From: Gallionella sp.
Lineage (GTDB): Bacteria > Pseudomonadota > Gammaproteobacteria > Burkholderiales > Gallionellaceae
Assembly: GCA_013043965.1 (NCBI GenBank)
Contig: JABEVF010000123.1
Location: 1 to 36,267 of the forward strand
Direction: 5' to 3'
Length of the DNA stretch: 36,267 bases
Shown piece by piece: positions 6,434-31,467 of this stretch. Within the stretch, counting starts at the first letter, position 1. Each line of letters starts with the position of its first letter. The translations under genes and the position numbers were made by a program. The notes under the pieces are model-generated. The model saw only the letters and a list, made by a program, of their open reading frames with translations. It ran no database searches and was not told the DNA's origin.

Positions 6434-7312
6434 CTAACTCAGGGTTTCCAACAATGCCCGGAATGCGGCATCAGGTGACATCACCGCATCGGCGAGGCCG
6501 AGTTTGACACCCGCATCGCCAAGGTAGGTTGCGGCTTGCGTATCGCGGATCGCTTGTTCCGCCATATTCCGGTTGCGCGCGGCAGTAACCACGAACAATT
6601 CGCCCATCACGTCCATGTCGCTCTGGAAGCGTTTCAGCGCTTCGGGCGAAAGCGGGATCTCGGGATGTCCGTCAGCCTTGCGCTCACCGTAGGTGATGAA
6701 GGTGACTTTCAACCCGGCATCGGTCAGCGCTTTAGACCAATCTACATGCATGCAGATGACGCCGATGCTGCCCACACCACCGGTGCGCGGTACGATGATA
6801 CGATCTGCGGCGCTGGCGAGGGCATAGCCTGCCGAATATGCCGATTCGCTCAGGATGCTCCAGATCGGTTTGTTCCCGCGCGACTGATAGATCGCATCGA
6901 CCAGGTCGAAGCATCCGGCAACTTCACCGCCGGGCGAGTCGATATCGAACATGATGGCCTTAACTTCCGGATCGGTGAGAGCCATGAGGAAGTTTTGGCG
7001 GATGCCGTCATAACCTGTCATGCCGGAGAATGGGCGGAGAGTGCCGAGTTTTTGCACCAGGGTGCCGCAGATCGGAATGATCGCCACGCCGTTGACAATG
7101 TCGTAGCCGCCGCGCGGGTTGTTCGCGTCGCGATCATAGCTGCCCATGTCATCATCCATCAGCGCCGACGGGTTCATGCTTTCTCCAGTGGCACGCACGA
7201 TATGCGTGATGCCGAGACGTTCGGCCAATGCGGCCATCACGACTTCTGCTTTGCGCGGATGGATGGCGAGCGGTACGTTAAACAGGCGCTGGCTCAGATG
7301 TGCGAATGACAT
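6434..7312 (-). CDS. S49 family head maturation protease (lambda gpC-like)
   Basis: 292 residues from the ATG at 7312, which overlaps the portal stop as TAATG; the upstream extension is out of the portal frame and unconvincing. Motifs of SppA/S49 serine proteases: FDIDSPGGEVAG near 123-133, the nucleophile Ser160 in SAYSAGYALASAAD, and GGVGSIGV near 178-185. The general-base lysine is likely Lys212 in GERKADGH. In lambda-type phages this enzyme clips portal, capsid or scaffold during head assembly. Here the scaffold is a separate downstream gene rather than a C-terminal part of the protease. Confidence 0.9.
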   Translation of the reverse strand: MSFAHLSQRLFNVPLAIHPRKAEVVMAALAERLGITHIVRATGESMNPSALMDDDMGSYDRDANNPRGGYDIVNGVAIIPICGTLVQKLGTLRPFSGMTGYDGIRQNFLMALTDPEVKAIMFDIDSPGGEVAGCFDLVDAIYQSRGNKPIWSILSESAYSAGYALASAADRIIVPRTGGVGSIGVICMHVDWSKALTDAGLKVTFITYGERKADGHPEIPLSPEALKRFQSDMDVMGELFVVTAARNRNMAEQAIRDTQAATYLGDAGVKLGLADAVMSPDAAFRALLETLS

Positions 7313-8946
7313 TAAACGATCCCCGGGTCTTGAATAATTTGATCGGCGGTTTTGTCCTGCATGCCCGCCCATTCTGGGACTTTCAGCCCCAAGGAATTGA
7401 ACAGATCGATTTCCTTTTTGCGCTGGAACAATACTTCTTCGTAGTCCAGCCCCTGCTCCGCACATTCGGATTGCAGCGTCGAGAGCCCGGCATCCATGCC
7501 GAGCACGGCGCCTTTCTTTTCGGCGACCGGATCGACCCAGCCCCGTCCCGGGCCGATCCACTCCGCACGCGCATAGGCGCTGCGGCATTCCATGAACTCG
7601 GGCGCACCCTTGGGCAACGGGAGATCATCGACTTCCATGGATTCTTCGAGGAAAGCACCGAAGATGGGCTGGGCAAAACCGTGTGCGAAATCGATACGGC
7701 GGCGCGTCATGGTCTTCCAGGCTTCGAGCATGGCCGCGCGCGCGCTGCTGTAATTCACATCGGACCAGTCTTGGCTGAGCTGTTGTGCGGAGATACCCAT
7801 GCCGGATGCGGCATTACGCAATACGGCACCTTCGAAGTCGCGGAAGTTACTATTCGGGCGAGCCGCCGAAACGGCGTTGATTTTCTCGCCCGGATACAAG
7901 ATCGGCATCTTGGCTTCGCCCAATGTGATGCGGCGATCGGTATGGAACTCGGCACGGCCTTGCTGGTAGGCATTCAGTTCTTCGCCGTCGCCACCCAGTG
8001 CGCTCTCGACGAATTGGTGGTCAAACGGGCTTTCGATATAAGCCGCAAATATTGCATTGATGATCGATGCGTCGAGCTCGGTGCTATCGTATTTGACCAG
8101 CATTTTCAGACGCTCCAGCACCGGCGCAAGAATTCCTGCGCCACCGCGATGCTGTCCAGCACGGTCATGGTCAAAATCGTGCACGATGATGGGTCTGCCC
8201 CAGTCGGTCTCGCGCGGGATCTTGTCCCAGTGCATCGCTTTTGCGGCATTGAACCAGTCACCCGCATGGGCGCGCCGTATCCAGTAAGCCGTGGCGGCAC
8301 CGTATTCGTCCACTTCGACACCGCCGCGCATCGTCATCTGATCGAATTGCAGTTGCGGATTTGAAAGACGATCCGGATCAACCAGTTGGATGCTGGTCGC
8401 GTAGCGCGCGCGGCCGATGCCGACCTGCTCGGGTTTCCAGTACAGCATGGCCAGTGCATCGCCATCTATCAGCTTGTGACGGAACGCGAGGCGCATCAGC
8501 TGCGATACGGTCAGGTTACGTTGGGCATCGCAGTATCGACCGAGATCGTTCGACCAGCTGCGATAGTTCGCTTCGACTGCACGGGCGTATTCGTCCGCCC
8601 ATTTGGAATCGAACGCCTTGTTGCCGGTATATTGCGCCAGGGCGCGATAATCCGGTTTTGAGATCGGACGGAAGCTCGCGCCGATTGCGTTGTCCAGAAT
8701 GCGCGTGATTGCACCGGACGCCCATCCGTCGTTGCGCACCATGTCGCGCACTCGCGACACGATGCGGTCGCGGTACATGTTGAGCTCGCCATCCGGCGAC
8801 CACAGGTAAGGGCGCCAGGAAGCCATGTGCCCGCTGTAGATATCCGCCGCGTCGTAAGGCGCTCCGCCGCCGCCATTCAACATCGAGGCGCGCGAAGGCT
8901 TCAGGGGCTGTCCGTTGGCCCCTAATATGGATACTAGATTTTCCAT
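7312..8946 (-). CDS. portal protein (lambda gpB family)
   Basis: 544-residue portal that forms the dodecameric ring through which DNA enters and to which the tail attaches. Family signatures include the N-terminal RDRIVSRVRDMVRNDGWASGAITRI pattern (shown in part), the DALAMLYW strand, the RRRIDFAHGFAQPIF segment, and the C-terminal GWVDPVAEKKGAVLGMDAGL, all characteristic of gpB/PF05136. The start ATG at 8946 abuts the gpW-like stop. The C-terminal 80 residues carry the crown region. The length is typical (lambda gpB 533). Confidence 0.92.
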   Translation of the reverse strand: MENLVSILGANGQPLKPSRASMLNGGGGAPYDAADIYSGHMASWRPYLWSPDGELNMYRDRIVSRVRDMVRNDGWASGAITRILDNAIGASFRPISKPDYRALAQYTGNKAFDSKWADEYARAVEANYRSWSNDLGRYCDAQRNLTVSQLMRLAFRHKLIDGDALAMLYWKPEQVGIGRARYATSIQLVDPDRLSNPQLQFDQMTMRGGVEVDEYGAATAYWIRRAHAGDWFNAAKAMHWDKIPRETDWGRPIIVHDFDHDRAGQHRGGAGILAPVLERLKMLVKYDSTELDASIINAIFAAYIESPFDHQFVESALGGDGEELNAYQQGRAEFHTDRRITLGEAKMPILYPGEKINAVSAARPNSNFRDFEGAVLRNAASGMGISAQQLSQDWSDVNYSSARAAMLEAWKTMTRRRIDFAHGFAQPIFGAFLEESMEVDDLPLPKGAPEFMECRSAYARAEWIGPGRGWVDPVAEKKGAVLGMDAGLSTLQSECAEQGLDYEEVLFQRKKEIDLFNSLGLKVPEWAGMQDKTADQIIQDPGIV

Positions 8947-23447: not shown

Positions 23448-24134
23448 ATGAACACTTTCATCACCGTACCAGCAACATCCTTACCGAACGGCACCATAGT
23501 CCCCTCATTTCAAGTCGGCGCATACGTCTGCAGTAAGGGAGAAGATGGTAATGCTGCTGTCACCTCTCATGGCAAACCCTGGGTGAACATCGACTTCGAG
23601 GAAGCCAAAGCCGCCTGCACCGAGATTGGTGCAGCACTGATCACTGAACTGCAATGGCTGGCTCTCGCATGGAATGCCTCCCAACAAGACTGCAATTGGA
23701 CCAGTGGCAAAGTCGGCGCAGGTGATCTGTTCCAAGGTCTGCGCAACGGCACAGTCAACGACGCTCAGGCTGGCGATTATGTTTCGTCCGACACATCAGA
23801 ACAACGCTGGCTCACACTTTCCAACGGCGAGCGCATCTGCGATCTGAACGGGAATGTCTATCAGTGGGTATTCGACGATGTGCAGGGCAACGAGAAGGGA
23901 ATCATCGCGAGCGACTTCGCCAAAGATTCTCCGTCAGTCGTCACCCCACCGTTCCCCACTCGCGAGAAGGGCATGGGCGATTATGCCGCATGGGATTGGT
24001 CCGGCTTTGCGCTCATCCGGGGCGGCTGCTGGTATTCCGCATCGCATGCGGGTGTCTTCTATCTCCTCTACGACTGGCCCGGCTATCGCTACGACAATGT
24101 CGGCTTTCGCTGCACCAAACCAATTGGTCTCTGA
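23448..24134 (+). CDS. DGR target protein 1 (FGE/C-type-lectin fold)
   Basis: 228 residues from the ATG at 23448, preceded by AAGGAG. The C-terminal half has the formylglycine-generating-enzyme/sulfatase-modifying fold used by many DGR targets: LNGNVYQWVFDDVQG near 138-152, then DWSGFALIRGGCWYSA and a final VGFRCTKPIGL. VR1 covers the last 45 or so codons, and all 12 differences from the TR lie at TR adenines, so this is the diversified ligand surface. No signal peptide or membrane segment. It starts directly with the FGE-like domain, unlike target 2. Diversified residues include Phe, Cys, His, Leu and Tyr in place of TR Asn/Tyr codons. Confidence 0.9.
   Translation: MNTFITVPATSLPNGTIVPSFQVGAYVCSKGEDGNAAVTSHGKPWVNIDFEEAKAACTEIGAALITELQWLALAWNASQQDCNWTSGKVGAGDLFQGLRNGTVNDAQAGDYVSSDTSEQRWLTLSNGERICDLNGNVYQWVFDDVQGNEKGIIASDFAKDSPSVVTPPFPTREKGMGDYAAWDWSGFALIRGGCWYSASHAGVFYLLYDWPGYRYDNVGFRCTKPIGL
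23999..24112 (+). repeat. variable repeat VR1 of the DGR
   Basis: 114 bases aligned without gaps to the TR at 26044-26157 (offset 2045). 12 substitutions, all at TR A positions (26051, 26052, 26073, 26085, 26090, 26105, 26111, 26112, 26114, 26127, 26129, 26135); none at the 90 non-A positions. The 3' end from the tgtcggc stretch is unchanged and acts as the invariant initiation end. Confidence 0.97.
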
Positions 24135-24146
24135 TCACTGGCCTCT

Positions 24147-24167
24147 GGTCGCGGCGTAGCCGTGGCC
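24147..24167 (+). promoter_or_regulatory. hairpin downstream of VR1
   Basis: ggtcgcggc-gta-gccgtggcc folds to a 9-bp stem with two wobble pairs and a 3-base loop, 34 bases after VR1. The same hairpin follows VR2. DGR target repeats need a downstream hairpin or cruciform for efficient retrohoming in Bordetella phage; this is the candidate here. Confidence 0.55.
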
Positions 24168-24198
24168 AAACACATCAACTTAACAACAGGAGCAAACC

Positions 24199-25119
24199 AT
24201 GAATGCGATCAACCAAAAAGAACTTGGTCTATACCAAAAATTCAACGTCACCCGGACAGATGGCAAAGATGCACCTGGCGAAAAACACTACGGTGATGAA
24301 TATTTTGTCCTGAATCTAACCACCGATGAACACGTCATTCCTGCGCTTGCGGCATATGCAGAATCCTGCGCCTCTGAATATCCCAAGCTGGCCGATGAAC
24401 TGCGCGGGAAGATTGCTGGATATGTATTGGAGAAATCCGAATACATCACTGTGCCCCAAATTATTCTACCGAATGGCATAGTCGTACCTTCGTTCAAGGT
24501 TGGCAAATATCTAAGCTCGCGTGGTCCTATGGGGACACCAGTGTCGATCGCTACCGCAAAACCTTGGGTCGAGATCTGTTACCACGATGCGCTCGATGCC
24601 GCCGATTGCAATGCGCTCGATCTGATAAAGGAAACGCAGGCACTGGCCATCGCGCATGACGTAGCCAATCAAGACTGCAATTGGACAGGTGGCAAGGTCG
24701 GTGAAGGGAAAATCTTTCAAGGCATCCATCTTGGCAACGTCAGCGAGGCCCAGGCTGCAACTTACGAACCGAACGAGGCAGAACGCCGCTGGCACCAGCT
24801 GAGCAACGGTGAGCGTATCTATGACTTTGCTGGCAATGCTTACACCTGGGTGTTTGACGACGTGCAAGGTGGCGAGAAAGGTCTGACCACCAAGATCGCC
24901 GCCGACTCAATCTCGCTTACCACAGCACCCTATCCGTCCTGCGAAAAAGGCGTTGGCTACCGTCCAGATGACGCGCGCGATTGGTCCGGCGATGCGCTCA
25001 TCCGGGGCGGCTGCTGGTGTTCCGCGTCGAGTGCGGGTGTCTTCTATCTCGACGACGGCTGGCCCGACTATCGCGGCGGCAGTGTCGGCTTTCGCTGCAC
25101 CAAACCAATTGGTCTCTGA
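24199..25119 (+). CDS. DGR target protein 2, fusion with phage N-terminal domain
   Basis: 306 residues from the ATG at 24199. The first 80 (GLYQKFNVTRTDGKDAPGEK, then EYFVLNLTTDEHVIPALAAY) match a small phage protein that is usually free-standing; the remainder parallels target 1 from ITVPQIILPNGIVVPSFKVG onwards. The C-terminal FGE-like domain has YTWVFDDVQGGEKG, DWSGDALIRGGCWCSA and VGFRCTKPIGL. VR2 covers the end with 15 substitutions, all at TR adenines. So both proteins share a diversified module, and target 2 adds a phage-specific anchor domain. Confidence 0.9.
   Translation: MNAINQKELGLYQKFNVTRTDGKDAPGEKHYGDEYFVLNLTTDEHVIPALAAYAESCASEYPKLADELRGKIAGYVLEKSEYITVPQIILPNGIVVPSFKVGKYLSSRGPMGTPVSIATAKPWVEICYHDALDAADCNALDLIKETQALAIAHDVANQDCNWTGGKVGEGKIFQGIHLGNVSEAQAATYEPNEAERRWHQLSNGERIYDFAGNAYTWVFDDVQGGEKGLTTKIAADSISLTTAPYPSCEKGVGYRPDDARDWSGDALIRGGCWCSASSAGVFYLDDGWPDYRGGSVGFRCTKPIGL
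24984..25097 (+). repeat. variable repeat VR2 of the DGR
   Basis: 114 bases aligned without gaps to the TR (offset 1060). 15 substitutions, all at TR A positions (26051, 26073, 26079, 26085, 26086, 26091, 26105, 26111, 26114, 26118, 26129, 26135, 26136, 26139, 26142); none elsewhere. Confidence 0.97.
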
Positions 25120-25131
25120 TCACTGGCCTCT

Positions 25132-25152
25132 GGTCGCGGCGTAGCCGTGGCC
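25132..25152 (+). promoter_or_regulatory. hairpin downstream of VR2
   Basis: Identical to the VR1 hairpin (ggtcgcggc-gta-gccgtggcc) and embedded in a 70-base block identical after both VRs (24098-24167 and 25083-25152). Confidence 0.55.
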
Positions 25153-25173
25153 CAACCCATCAATAGGACGAAT

Positions 25174-26019
25174 ATGAACGAAACGCAACCAACCGACGAA
25201 GAACAAATCCAGTTCAGCCTCCGCGCCTTCAGGGGCATAGAGGCCGGACTGGGTGAGGCCGATCCGATTGCCACCATCGCGCAGAAGCTGGAAGCGCAGC
25301 ATCCTGGTCACTTGATCCTGGTACAGGCTGGCAAGTTCCTGCATGGCTACGACCGTACCGCCTACGCGCTGGCCACGTTGAAGCAATACAAACTCAAGCT
25401 GGTCGGCACCACTATCGAGCCTCACATCCGCGTCGGCTTTCCGGTCGGCAATTTCAAGCGCCGGTTGTGGATCGTGGTGGAAGAATTCGGGATTCCCTAT
25501 GTAGTTGCGCTGGGCACGCTGGCATCAGGTCGCACGATCTATGTGTCCAGCCAACCTACAGGCAACAACCAGGTACTGGAATCGGTCTCGCCTCAAATCA
25601 TCGCGGACGTGATCTACGACCTCAAGCAGCGCGGCGAAGTGAATAAGGCTGCCGCCAAGCAGCTGCTGGCCAATCCAGACAGCACCTGCTTCCAGCTCAA
25701 AGCCAAAGCTCAGGATCTGGACACGCAACTGTTGCACGACATCATCAAAATGCCGCGCGATCTGCGCGCCACCTACGGCGAGAACCTGCGCAGCTGCATT
25801 GGACGCATCCTGCATAGCGTTATGGCCTATGGGCTGGAAGACAACAAGCCGCAGCTGCTCAAGTCACTTTCGGCCGACGTGGATATGCTCAAACACTACC
25901 TTGCACAGGCCCCACGGCTAAACGGGCTCAAGCTCTCATTCGAGCATCGCGCCGGTTTAGCCGTTGAGCTTGGCCGTCTGGTTGGCGGTCTCATCCGTTC
26001 TACACAGGTGCAGCCATGA
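25174..26019 (+). CDS. avd: MutS-like domain fused to Avd (DGR accessory)
   Basis: 281 residues from the ATG at 25174 (AGGACG upstream; an earlier GTG at 25147 is unsupported). Residues about 25-145 resemble MutS domain I: AQKLEAQHPGHLILVQAGKF in place of the mismatch-reading segment, then a GFPVGNFKRRLWIVVEEFGI block. The phenylalanine is retained but the partner Glu of the Phe-x-Glu motif is not seen (FLHGYD). Residues about 185-281 are the four-helix Avd bundle (DIIKMPRDLRATYGENLRSC then RAGLAVELGRLVGGLIRS), which binds the RT and template RNA. The stop lies 24 bases before the TR. MutS-like accessory parts in DGRs have been described; here fusion to Avd is the point of interest. Confidence 0.8.
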   Translation: MNETQPTDEEQIQFSLRAFRGIEAGLGEADPIATIAQKLEAQHPGHLILVQAGKFLHGYDRTAYALATLKQYKLKLVGTTIEPHIRVGFPVGNFKRRLWIVVEEFGIPYVVALGTLASGRTIYVSSQPTGNNQVLESVSPQIIADVIYDLKQRGEVNKAAAKQLLANPDSTCFQLKAKAQDLDTQLLHDIIKMPRDLRATYGENLRSCIGRILHSVMAYGLEDNKPQLLKSLSADVDMLKHYLAQAPRLNGLKLSFEHRAGLAVELGRLVGGLIRSTQVQP

Positions 26020-26043
26020 CACAACGAAGGGGATTCTCTGAAA

Positions 26044-26157
26044 GTCCGGCAATGCGCTCATCCGGGGCGGCTACTGGTATTCCGAATCGAATGCGGGTGT
26101 CTTCAATCTCAACAACGACTGGCCCGACAATCGCAACGACAATGTCGGCTTTCGCTG
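26044..26157 (+). repeat. template repeat TR of the DGR
   Basis: 114-base template with 24 adenines. In the VR reading frame it encodes eight AAY codons plus Tyr, Asp and Glu codons at the positions that vary, and ends in TGA where VRs read TGC. It lies between the avd stop and the RT start, as in most DGRs. A flanking region of about 120 bases to the RT may be part of the template RNA. Confidence 0.97.
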
Positions 26158-26276
26158 ACCCAAGAACATACAGCCTAGACGCTGGGCATGCCCACGGAAG
26201 GACAACTCTTGGTCGAGAATCTCCTGGTGCTCGCGCACCCAAAGCACGGCAACACGCCCAACTGGAAACCGCTGCG

Positions 26277-27305
26277 ATGCCTACGGGTGGCGCGGTGGAA
26301 TGCGGTAATGATTTTTATCGCCTCACTACACTCGCCAACCTATTCGATTGCTGGCTACACGCCCGCAGCAACAAGGGTGCCCGTCTGCGCATCCAACGTT
26401 TTGCCGAAGATCCATTGCATTACCTGACCATCATCCAGCAACGCCTGCTCGATCGGCAATATACCTTCGGCCCGTACAAGACATTCACCGTGCGCGAGAA
26501 GAAATTCCGCGACGTGGTCGATGCACCGATGAAAGACCGCATCGTGCACTGGATGCTTTACCAGTACCTGCTGCCAATCTGGCAGCCGAAATTCATACAT
26601 GATACCTACGGCAATCTGCCCGGTCGCGGCACGCATGCCGCTGTGCGCAGACTGGCACAATTTGCCCGTAGCGCGAATGCCACTTGGGTGCTGCAACTCG
26701 ACATCAGCAAGTATTTCTACTCAATCAACCATGTCCTGCTCAAAGAGCGCGTATTGCGTTACATCGGCGATCACGAACTGCGCACGCTCCTGGTCAATCT
26801 CATCGATTCGTTTCAAACCAATGACAGCTACAACCATCTATTTGATGAGTCCACGTTGTTCCGGCAGACCACAGCCAAGGGCATGCCCATTGGCAACCTG
26901 AGCAGCCAGCTGTTCGCCAACATTTTTCTAAATGACTTCGATCACTGGATCAAGGAGACATTGCGCGTGCGTCGCTATGTTCGTTACGTGGATGACATGG
27001 TCATCCTGTGCGACTCCCTGGAAGGGCTGCAAACCCTGTGCGAACAGATAACCGCCAAGCTCGCCAGCGATGGTTTGGTCATTCACCCGCACAAGATTCG
27101 CCTGGCACCGACCAGTACAGGCATCCCATTCTTGGGCTACGTCGTCTGGCCGCAACACATTTCTGCCGGGCGCTACATTCGAACTCGTTATCACCAGCGG
27201 CTACGCCAGCACGATTCAGGCACTCGCGATAGAACCGACGCGCTGCGTTCATATCAAGCAATGCTTAATCACACAGGCTCAACACGACATAAAGGCATGC
27301 AATGA
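26277..27305 (+). CDS. DGR reverse transcriptase
   Basis: 342 residues from the ATG at 26277; the open frame to 26016 would read through the TR, so the shorter start is preferred. Motifs: domain 3 aspartate Asp142 in VLQLDISKYFYSI, DGR-type domain 4 MPIGNLSSQLFANIFL at about 203-218, catalytic YVDD at 237-240, and IRLAPTSTGIPFLGY late. These identify a group II-related DGR-RT, which copies TR RNA with errors at adenines; the cDNA replaces the VR. Its stop overlaps the next start as ATGA. Confidence 0.95.
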   Translation: MPTGGAVECGNDFYRLTTLANLFDCWLHARSNKGARLRIQRFAEDPLHYLTIIQQRLLDRQYTFGPYKTFTVREKKFRDVVDAPMKDRIVHWMLYQYLLPIWQPKFIHDTYGNLPGRGTHAAVRRLAQFARSANATWVLQLDISKYFYSINHVLLKERVLRYIGDHELRTLLVNLIDSFQTNDSYNHLFDESTLFRQTTAKGMPIGNLSSQLFANIFLNDFDHWIKETLRVRRYVRYVDDMVILCDSLEGLQTLCEQITAKLASDGLVIHPHKIRLAPTSTGIPFLGYVVWPQHISAGRYIRTRYHQRLRQHDSGTRDRTDALRSYQAMLNHTGSTRHKGMQ

Positions 27306-28171
27306 CCAACCTTCGCGAACTCATCTTGGCACAACTCGCCGGAACCACCAGTCAAAATCCGGTGTATCTCACCGTCCTACGCAAAAAGACCGAGCGTATC
27401 TGCGATGACCCTAACGTACTGCACAAGCAGCTCGATGATCTCTACGCCGAACATAAAGTCAACCGATGCGCCGGCGAAAAAAAAGGCGTGCCCTATATGG
27501 CCTATTGGCTCACTGGTGTCGTGCAGACGTTTCTACATTCCAGCGTGGCATACGGTCGTCCGCTTCCGCCGCGTCGGGTTGCTATCCGCGAAGAGACCCA
27601 AGTGAAGTCGAATATTTCAATTTCAGCCGAATCAACATCTGAAAAGGAGCAATCTATGACAACCAAAACCAAACAAACTCGCGGTACTCTCTATCAAATA
27701 CTGCTTGATAAAGTCGCCGCACAACCCGGCATCGAACGCGCCGAGTTGCTCGTCTATGCCAAAAACTTATCCGCCGATCATACTCACAAGCGACTCGACA
27801 AAGCGATCTGGGATCTGCGCAACACCAAAAAACTACTAAGTCAAGAAGGCAGCCCAAACAAACCTCCGGTTACCTATTTTTTGAACACGGCATCCAGCGT
27901 GCCCACAGCCAAACCATCCAAGGTAGTCAAAAAGCCTGACACCCACAAACCTTCTGTCGCAACAAACAAACCTACGCGTGCTGAGACTTATAAACAAATA
28001 CAAGACGATTCCAACGCATCTTCCGCAAAAACGTTCGACTGCACCATATCTCTATCCGGCAGCATGACTATTAGCAAGGGCAGTCAGCGCATCGACCTAT
28101 CCCGTGATGAAGCGCGGAAATTCATGACTTTCGTCAGCGAGAAATTGACAGTCGCCCAAGCCACCGCATAA
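27302..28171 (+). CDS. unknown protein coupled to the RT
   Basis: 289 residues; start overlaps the RT stop (ATGA). Residues 1-75 and 120-195 each look like a small helix-rich winged fold (ELILAQLAGTTSQNPVYLTV; LYQILLDKVAAQPGIERAEL), separated and followed by Thr/Lys-rich linkers. The C-terminus has CTISLSGSMTISKGSQRIDL and SRDEARKFMTFVSEKL, a beta-hairpin plus helix. No family recognised. Coupling to the RT makes a DGR-related role worth testing, but a general phage role is as likely. Confidence 0.5.
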   Translation: MTNLRELILAQLAGTTSQNPVYLTVLRKKTERICDDPNVLHKQLDDLYAEHKVNRCAGEKKGVPYMAYWLTGVVQTFLHSSVAYGRPLPPRRVAIREETQVKSNISISAESTSEKEQSMTTKTKQTRGTLYQILLDKVAAQPGIERAELLVYAKNLSADHTHKRLDKAIWDLRNTKKLLSQEGSPNKPPVTYFLNTASSVPTAKPSKVVKKPDTHKPSVATNKPTRAETYKQIQDDSNASSAKTFDCTISLSGSMTISKGSQRIDLSRDEARKFMTFVSEKLTVAQATA

Positions 28172-30372: not shown

Positions 30373-31467
30373 ATGTCCCGCATGGTCGGTCGCAGAAAAA
30401 ACAATCCGCTCGGTCTTGAGCCGCGCGTCTATGCAAAGCATGGCGCGTTTTATTACGTCCACCGTGACGGTCGCTGGGAGAAGATAGGCACGGACATCGC
30501 CAAGGCCAACGACCGCGCCAAACTCTATAACGACTCGGGCGGATTGTTTGACACGATGGCTTACTGGCTAGATATGTTCATCGTCGATTGTGAGGCGCGC
30601 GTCAAATCAGGCACGCTTGCTCAGCGTACCCTGGAAGACTATCAAAAAGACATCGCGCCACTGAAGATATACCTCGCCCCGCCGATGCTGCCGACCGACA
30701 TCGAGCCGAATCACATACAAGACTATCTGGAGATCGGCGCAGCAAATGGGCGACCCGTTCGAGCCAACCGCGAGAAGGCGTGCCTGTCTTCCTGCATATC
30801 CTGGCTGATTCGCAGCGGCAAGGTGGACGGACTTATCGTCAACCCCTGCATGCGCGCCAGCGGCATCAAGCGCAACCCCGAGAGCAAGCGCGAGCGCTAC
30901 GTCAGCCACGACGAATACCGAGAGGTCTACGCCGTCGCACCTCCCCAGGTGCAGGCCATGATGGAACTGACCTACCGCACCCTGCAGCGCCCCGAGAGCG
31001 ACATCCTGGACTGGACGGTGGCCAACCTCACGATGAAGGACGGCAAACGCATCTTGCGCGTCGATCAGGGCAAGACCGGAAAGGTCGTCGACATCGCCCT
31101 ATCCGACGACCTGAGCACCCTGCTGCAAACACTGATCGGCGACATCCCGCGCATCGGAAAACCGCTAATCTGCTGCAGCCGAGGCAAGTATGCCGGCCAG
31201 CGCTACACCTACGACGGCATCAGCTCCATGCTCAAGCGCGCCATCGTCTCGGCCAATACCGAGCACGTGAAAAAAGGCCAGACCAAGATGCTACCCTTCG
31301 GCTTCCGCGACCTCAAGGGCAAGGGTGCGACAGACATGTGGATCTCTGGTGTGCCCATCGAAGAAATCCAACTGCTGTGCGGCCATGAAGACAAGAGCAC
31401 TACCGAGAAGTACATCAAGCAACGCTGGCGAGAAACAGCCCAGCCGAACCGGGTGCTAATGGCCTGA
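30373..31467 (+). CDS. int: tyrosine-family integrase
   Basis: 364 residues. The SAM-like N-terminal core-binding domain covers about 60-150, the catalytic domain about 175-360. Catalytic set: Arg206 (TLQRPESDIL), Lys234 hairpin (DQGKTGK), box II RDLK at 312-315, His338 (LLCGHED) and Tyr347 (TEKYIKQ). Box II normally reads HxxR; here Arg312 and Lys315 replace the two, a variation seen in some phage integrases but unusual. It lies at the prophage right end near the tRNA-Asn fragment, as expected. Confidence 0.88.
   Translation: MSRMVGRRKNNPLGLEPRVYAKHGAFYYVHRDGRWEKIGTDIAKANDRAKLYNDSGGLFDTMAYWLDMFIVDCEARVKSGTLAQRTLEDYQKDIAPLKIYLAPPMLPTDIEPNHIQDYLEIGAANGRPVRANREKACLSSCISWLIRSGKVDGLIVNPCMRASGIKRNPESKRERYVSHDEYREVYAVAPPQVQAMMELTYRTLQRPESDILDWTVANLTMKDGKRILRVDQGKTGKVVDIALSDDLSTLLQTLIGDIPRIGKPLICCSRGKYAGQRYTYDGISSMLKRAIVSANTEHVKKGQTKMLPFGFRDLKGKGATDMWISGVPIEEIQLLCGHEDKSTTEKYIKQRWRETAQPNRVLMA

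Follow-up and report, generated by a model that had tools for sequence, protein, structure and literature searches.

We analyzed a diversity-generating retroelement (DGR) of Gallionella sp. (GCA_013043965.1, contig JABEVF010000123.1) in a window of 36,267 nucleotides, that is, positions 1-36,267 of the forward strand of this contig. Our main finding is that the element is a real and complete DGR with two target genes, and that its template repeat (TR) and the spacer (Sp) that follows it appear, from the comparison of related loci, to be the translated leader of the reverse transcriptase (RT), or of another gene in some relatives. It is very probable, in our judgment, that this is a prophage-borne DGR whose accessory-TR-Sp-RT transcript acts as template and whose TR and Sp are translated as a leader. 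An earlier note on this DNA had described a complete two-target DGR at 23448-27305; these coordinates are correct and the description is supported as far as it went, but the account was incomplete, as it omitted the accessory protein, the hairpins, the spacer RNA, the overlap of the TR with the RT frame, and identical flanks of 55 nucleotides (nt). The parts of the element are:

23448..24134, + strand: target gene 1 (228 amino acids), FGE-sulfatase/C-type-lectin-like (PF03781, E 4.8e-10, above cut-off; phrog_2889), with variable repeat 1 (VR1) at its C-terminus
23999-24112, + strand: VR1, with 12 substitutions relative to the TR, all at TR adenines
24199..25119, + strand: target gene 2 (306 amino acids), phrog_9572 (E 4.2e-38), PF03781 below cut-off, carrying VR2
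24984-25097, + strand: VR2, with 15 substitutions relative to the TR, all at TR adenines
25147..26019, + strand: accessory gene, start GTG 25147 or ATG 25174, with an N-terminal MutS-domain-I-like part and a C-terminal Avd part
26006..26019, + strand: AGGTG motif and ATGA overlap, with the accessory stop at 26017-26019 and the leader/RT ATG at 26016
26016..27305, + strand: RT open reading frame (ORF; 429 amino acids), matching phrog_1423 (E 2.5e-102) from residue 95 and RVT_1 (E 6.5e-27) from residue 162
26044-26157, + strand: TR, 114 bases including 24 A, ending where the TR version (IMH*, GCTGACCCAA) of the initiation of mutagenic homing sequence (IMH, GCTGCACCAA) departs from the latter
26158..26290, + strand: structured Sp of the template RNA, identified by covariation within the open RT frame, its 3' limit approximate

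The TR aligns without gaps to both repeats, and the claim that adenines alone had changed held on recounting: all 27 substitutions (12/12 in VR1, 15/15 in VR2) fall on TR adenines and none on the other 90 positions. With a chance of 24/114 per substitution, such an adenine-only pattern would be expected with a probability of about 8e-9 for VR1 and 7e-11 for VR2. Between the two repeats there are 15 differing sites, each a TR adenine. Read in the target frame, 14 TR codons are changed in at least one VR, and 8 of these are AAY in the TR; these are the eight AAY codons that had been pointed out at varying sites, and adenine changes in the listed TR codons never yield a stop. No TR-like copy other than TR, VR1 and VR2 was found across the assembly (2.48 Mb, 157 contigs, 95.7% complete). 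Both RT motifs cited earlier are present, PIGNLSSQ (as MPIGNLSSQ) and YVDD, and a single tree of 31 rows, which carried long-branch warnings, places the RT among those with a ..SQ motif. It belongs there to a family-specific clade (8 rows, support 100/100) that is separate from QG..SP RTs (n=8). The 55 nt after VR1 (24113-24167) are identical to the 55 nt after VR2 (25098-25152), a stretch that runs beyond the stop codons and ends with the last base of a hairpin described below, while further upstream the two targets have diverged; this suggests a duplication of the target or copying of its 3' end.

To place the element in its family, relatives were gathered from IMG/VR (21 loci via the accessory gene and 31 via the RT, 4 of the latter at 29-32% identity) and from GTDB genomes (7 loci, with titles naming Proteobacteria, 5 of the 7 being betaproteobacterial by name). 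Both genes were present in 52 sequences, and 41, the window counted among them, were kept for comparison. A scan requiring at least 4 adenine changes per other change recovered a TR/VR pair in 33 of the 41 loci, each with at most 2 non-adenine changes. The IMH* reads GCTGACCCAA in 51 of 56 TR rows (a TR being counted once per VR pair), and the IMH, which differs from it, reads GCTGCACCAA in 47 of 56 VR rows.

The family carries the case for a translated leader, because a single open spacer is no evidence. The accessory gene ends in a TGA overlapping an ATG (ATGA) in 41/41 loci, and in the 33 loci with a TR/VR pair the TR starts 20-30 nt past the accessory stop and ends at 138-146 nt. From this ATGA an ORF is open through TR and Sp in all 41 loci, continuing into the RT in 32 and, in the other 9, into a different gene that precedes the RT. 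In the window, TR and Sp make up the first 93 or so codons of the RT ORF, and the match to the RT family starts at residue 95. The genes joined to the leader in the 9 non-RT fusions are unrelated, yet joined in the same frame and at about the same point: Pfam identifies a D12 adenine methylase (L049, L063), a PAPS reductase (L061), an N6/N4 methylase (L067) and an H-NS C-terminal domain (L012), and gives no match for the fused genes of L015, L018, L065 and L076.

The start itself may also be under selection. A match of at least 4 nt to a Shine-Dalgarno (SD)-like motif precedes the ATGA start in 39/41 loci, as against 15.7% of random windows of the accessory gene, and one of at least 5 nt in 29/41, as against 2.4%; the motifs vary by locus (AAGGA, AGGTG, GGAGG and others), a pattern that favors selection on the start site. 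Moreover, 7 of the 32 RT fusions have no ATG, GTG or TTG between TR and RT core, and the L018 fusion lacks all three over codons 47 to 139. An RT fusion of the former kind, L017, is apparently the same locus as one of Solimicrobium silvestre (L050), and L012, whose leader runs into an H-NS-like gene, apparently corresponds to a locus of Aromatoleum toluclasticum (L045). Spacer length changes of +2 and -2 cancel in one clade of seven loci, and an automatic sum of frame changes gave a multiple of three in 38/41. Conserved start, SD-like motif, downstream starts missing in some loci, and foreign genes joined in frame are thus the pillars on which the leader would stand. In L056 and L069, about 80 additional in-frame codons lie between leader and RT domain.

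The Sp shows signs of a conserved RNA structure. RNAalifold predicts 29 pairs in seven helices, with 95.8% of cells paired against 89.3% in shuffled alignments (33 sequences); two-sided changes occur in 15 of the 29 pairs against 8.0 in shuffles, and covariation is 0.274, compared with 0.155 for shuffles and 0.073-0.094 for slid structures. The final TR bases and the IMH* bases just after the TR pair with spacer segments. One measure is weaker: further pair types are raised only modestly (27 against 24.5), 34 of 500 shuffles being as high. An Rfam search gave a single match, far under its gathering score. From these alignments, the leader is best read as a sequence constrained as RNA and kept open and in frame.

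A number of observations weigh against translation through the template. Open frames come easily here: the window spacer, when shuffled, is open in 32% of cases, and a second spacer frame is free of stops in 34/41 loci and a third in 10/41. The same is true of a comparison set of BPP-1-type loci (67 found, 58 examined), where 38/58 RTs are open through TR and Sp despite an ATG of their own. We therefore rejected the open frame as sufficient proof of translation, since shuffles and BPP-1-type loci are also often open. Some ATG, GTG or TTG does follow the TR in 25/32 RT fusions, and the window has an ATG at codon 87 (SD-like match of 3 nt) and a GTG at codon 93 (4 nt). Spacer differences per codon position are flat in the RT frame (0.26/0.29/0.31), so that a leader, if made, would be merely tolerated, with no selection on amino acids in Sp. 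The automatic frame sum failed in L012, L018 and L055, where we judge the last anchors to be misplaced by insertions because the frames are open throughout. Finally, the scan gave no TR/VR pair in 8/41 loci, and our searches reach close relatives only, the 41 loci being related and some of them near-identical.

Ratios of nonsynonymous to synonymous change bear on what kind of leader this could be. Across 30 RT fusions, dN/dS of the spacer in the RT frame is 0.72, near the values of the other frames, while the RT core gives 0.15; pN/pS of the TR is 0.33 in the target frame (constrained) and 1.17 in the RT frame (unconstrained). A leader selected as a protein was accordingly rejected, the spacer codon positions being flat and the TR constrained in the target frame. 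It remains conceivable that the leader is translated and has a separate function, for example as a peptide or as a device in which unfolding driven by the ribosome regulates how the RT reaches the template RNA. A start conserved across RT and non-RT fusions and an RNA structure lying inside the frame would suit this, but Sp is without selection at the amino-acid level, and we regard such a function as possible though unlikely.

Less likely still, and by a good deal, is an ordinary DGR of the BPP-1 kind: neither TR nor Sp would be translated, ATG 26277 or GTG 26295 would serve as RT start, and the frame would be open by accident of template composition. The spacer without codon signature and with a second stop-free frame in most loci, and the BPP-1-type RTs that are open upstream while retaining their own ATG, are what this explanation has to offer. 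Indeed, the RT retains its ATG in all 58 BPP-1-type loci examined, as first matched codon in 56 and one codon further up in 2; an SD-like motif of at least 4 nt precedes only 10/56 of these ATGs, so that the absence of a motif alone is no argument against a start. The explanation meets its difficulties in the 7 of 32 relatives with no candidate start after the TR, in an ATGA found in every locus and preceded nearly always by an SD-like motif, and in the unrelated genes fused in one frame at about one point. As for a decayed or inactive relic, the accessory gene is sporadic in the genus: among 76 genomes it occurs in that of the window only, one other giving a weak match to the Avd part. Against this, the target, accessory and RT frames and the RT motifs are intact, and near-identical pairs of relatives differ in their VRs, if at all, at adenines only (adenine/other differences of 23/0 for L008/L009, 15/0 for L056/L061, 15/0 for L060/L062 and 0/0 for L019/L020). 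A relic is thus the least credible of these explanations, to the point of being very improbable, and the DGR is probably active within its family.

Each VR is followed by a hairpin of the same sequence:

24147..24167, + strand: hairpin after VR1, GGTCGCGGC-GTA-GCCGTGGCC, 9 bp with two G.T pairs, from sequence reading and RNA fold
25132..25152, + strand: hairpin after VR2, same sequence as that after VR1

RNA folding of the window flanks gave z values of -3.0 after VR1 and -1.4 after VR2. The script used for the family skipped the window hairpin on account of its two wobbles, so that this hairpin is based on sequence reading and the fold, and it took a non-family stem in a few flanks (for example L014, L053, L056, L059 and L075). 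Over 56 VR flanks of the family, stems of at least 7 bp contain 60 G.T pairs, no A.C and 10 other mismatches. Among unique stems of at least 8 bp, the G.T:A.C counts, spread over several stem positions, are 42:0, 32:0, 48:2 and 55:8 at penalties of 1.5, 2.0, 1.0 and 0.5, respectively; many of the G.T mismatches are inherited and hence not independent events. By comparison, 39 BPP-1-type flanks yielded 13 stems of at least 7 bp, with 1 G.T, no A.C and 1 other mismatch, and none in the shorter stems listed. A G.T on the sense strand is an A.C on the other, and the structure under selection would therefore be one of the sense strand, whether in single-stranded DNA or in RNA. On this pattern, the VR hairpins look strand-specific, a feature that would be new as far as the literature was searched, no earlier description having been found there. 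Their reading as transcription terminators was not favoured, as a T-run is absent after the hairpin in the window. In BPP-1, efficient retrohoming needs a hairpin after the VR, and the stems reported for phage DGRs are of 7-10 bp, GC-rich, with GRNA loops (PMC3240598). It has also been argued that the complementary DNA (cDNA) pairs with whichever target strand remains single on the lagging-strand template (PMC12875486). In the present locus that strand would be the sense strand, which would fit the hairpin bias; a hairpin tolerant of G.T and poor in A.C would agree better with the lagging-strand model of that paper than with a symmetric cruciform.

The accessory gene, which sits between VR2 and TR, encodes a protein whose C-terminal half matches the Avd family phrog_3206 (E 3.8e-7). 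All 23 family members match Pfam bAvd, at best with E 5.3e-5; the window protein scores 20.6 bits, under the cut-off of 40. In Foldseek comparisons, the structure model aligns about 110 residues with BPP-1 Avd (chains of 8ub7, 8ube and 4dwl), with TM scores of 0.76-0.85 depending on the target and a best E of 2.6e-3. The same model matches many MutS chains, with a best E of 0.018 and probabilities of 0.82-1.00 among the matches listed (best 50). The alignment pairs GDFYE of MutS with GKFLH of the accessory, the Phe being invariant and the Glu position an invariant His (23/23); in MutS, the Phe and Glu of this motif contact the mismatch. The assignment of these domains has points against it: MutS_I is sub-threshold in the family (7/23 members, best E 0.047), the model is of low confidence (mean predicted local distance difference test score 59.5, from 23 sequences, with a helical C-terminus mostly at 70-87), and none of its 712 Foldseek matches reaches E 0.001. 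Direct comparison of the N-terminus with 14 MutS domains was weak (hhalign probability 2.3; hmmsearch best E 0.011, on tiny databases), and a search of PDB sequences with the accessory profile gave no meaningful match. At E 1e-5 the gene matches nothing in INPHARED phages or PLSDB plasmids; the RT matches 131 INPHARED records, every one below 60% identity.

The protein is of a known kind or close to one. As modelled, it consists of an Avd domain behind a MutS-domain-I-like domain, resembling the accessory named "MSL", which was reportedly first described by Wu et al. 2018 in Nucleic Acids Research (NAR). That accessory is assigned PF01624, MutS domain I, in PMC10053308, whereas the PF01624 match of the window family is sub-threshold. 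A fusion to a MutS-domain-I-like part would point to a role of mismatch handling in the DGR process. One relative (L058:3613-5866) has a tandem repeat of 1,070 bp that yields two successive accessory and TR copies, either a real duplication or a misassembly.

Judged by its gene content, the contig represents a contractile-tailed prophage that carries the DGR. To the left of the DGR lie genes for tail sheath, major head protein, head decoration, protease, portal, large and small terminase, and primase/helicase, and HNH and ParB-like genes are near the cassette. Two further genes delimit the setting:

435-1946: tail sheath, at the left edge of the window, any remainder of a tail module presumably lying beyond it
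30373-31467: integrase

On the minus strand, 277 nt (7312-7588) are shared by the portal ORF (7312-8946) and the head protease ORF (6434-7588), which use different frames. The two targets are paralogous, with 56% identity over residues 81-306 of target 2; targets of phage DGRs are usually read as surface or receptor-binding proteins. Downstream, the RT stop overlaps the ATG of the next gene (ATGA, 27302-27305), and this gene (27302-28171; no Pfam match, weak match to a PHROG of unknown function) may be coupled to the RT.

Taken as a mechanism, with retrohoming steps that we infer by analogy with BPP-1, the accessory-TR-Sp-RT transcript would serve as template, and RT and Avd-type accessory would copy the TR from the structured Sp RNA, misincorporating at adenines. 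The cDNA would then replace VR1 or VR2 beside IMH and hairpin, and so diversify two lectin-like proteins. A ribosome ending the accessory at the ATGA, or loading at the upstream motif, would start there and read through TR and Sp; the leader would presumably be made and retained on the RT, translation and reverse transcription would compete for one RNA, and the MutS-like domain might meet the mismatched duplex of cDNA and target. Only as a tentative proposal, somewhat short of what we would expect to hold, do we join all of this: a template RNA that doubles as 5' coding part, translation that controls hypermutation, a TR-Sp unit that is exchangeable and fused to phage genes, a hairpin of the sense strand only, and an accessory mismatch domain that handles the mutated duplex. 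Two open points of DGR biology are concerned. One is how reverse transcription is separated from translation of the same transcript, and a template lying within the translated 5' part of the RT gene, if true, would be a natural test of that separation. The other is how the cDNA enters the target, which is termed mysterious in PMC12875486.

Overlap of a TR with an RT ORF is already recorded as a class, and new as far as we searched would be a leader that is translated and exchangeable, together with a hairpin specific to one strand. For the leader, no description was found in the open-licence literature searched, outside which the main DGR survey lies; this is a weak negative. The recorded class is DiGReF group 3, defined by a TR that overlaps an RT ORF end (PMC3521204), and ORF 26016-27305 indeed contains the TR at 26044-26157. 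For this class, the authors infer in PMC3521204 a separate transcription and attach no importance to position.

The closest well-known system is the BPP-1 DGR (mtd-avd-TR-brt; NC_005357). As described in PMC12875486 and PMC3240598, it shares with the window the order target-accessory-TR-RT, an Avd-type accessory and a G...SQ RT motif, and further an IMH/IMH* pair, a hairpin after the VR and a spacer RNA between TR and RT. More than half of the 58 BPP-1-type RTs (L098-L156) have frames open some 600-900 nt upstream of the ATG. The differences concern three parts. In the BPP-1-type loci examined the RT-start ATG is kept, whereas the window family has no conserved RT start after the TR and an ATGA start before it. 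Hairpins of the BPP-1 type (39 flanks) have perfect stems, two excepted, and mostly GRNA-type loops, whereas those of the window family have longer stems with G.T pairs and mostly GTA, GTAA, GAA or GTGA loops. The accessory of the family has a MutS-I-like domain added to what BPP-1 Avd contains. Compared with DiGReF group 3, in turn, the overlap in the window family is conserved together with start, SD-like motif and frame, and it extends to genes other than the RT.

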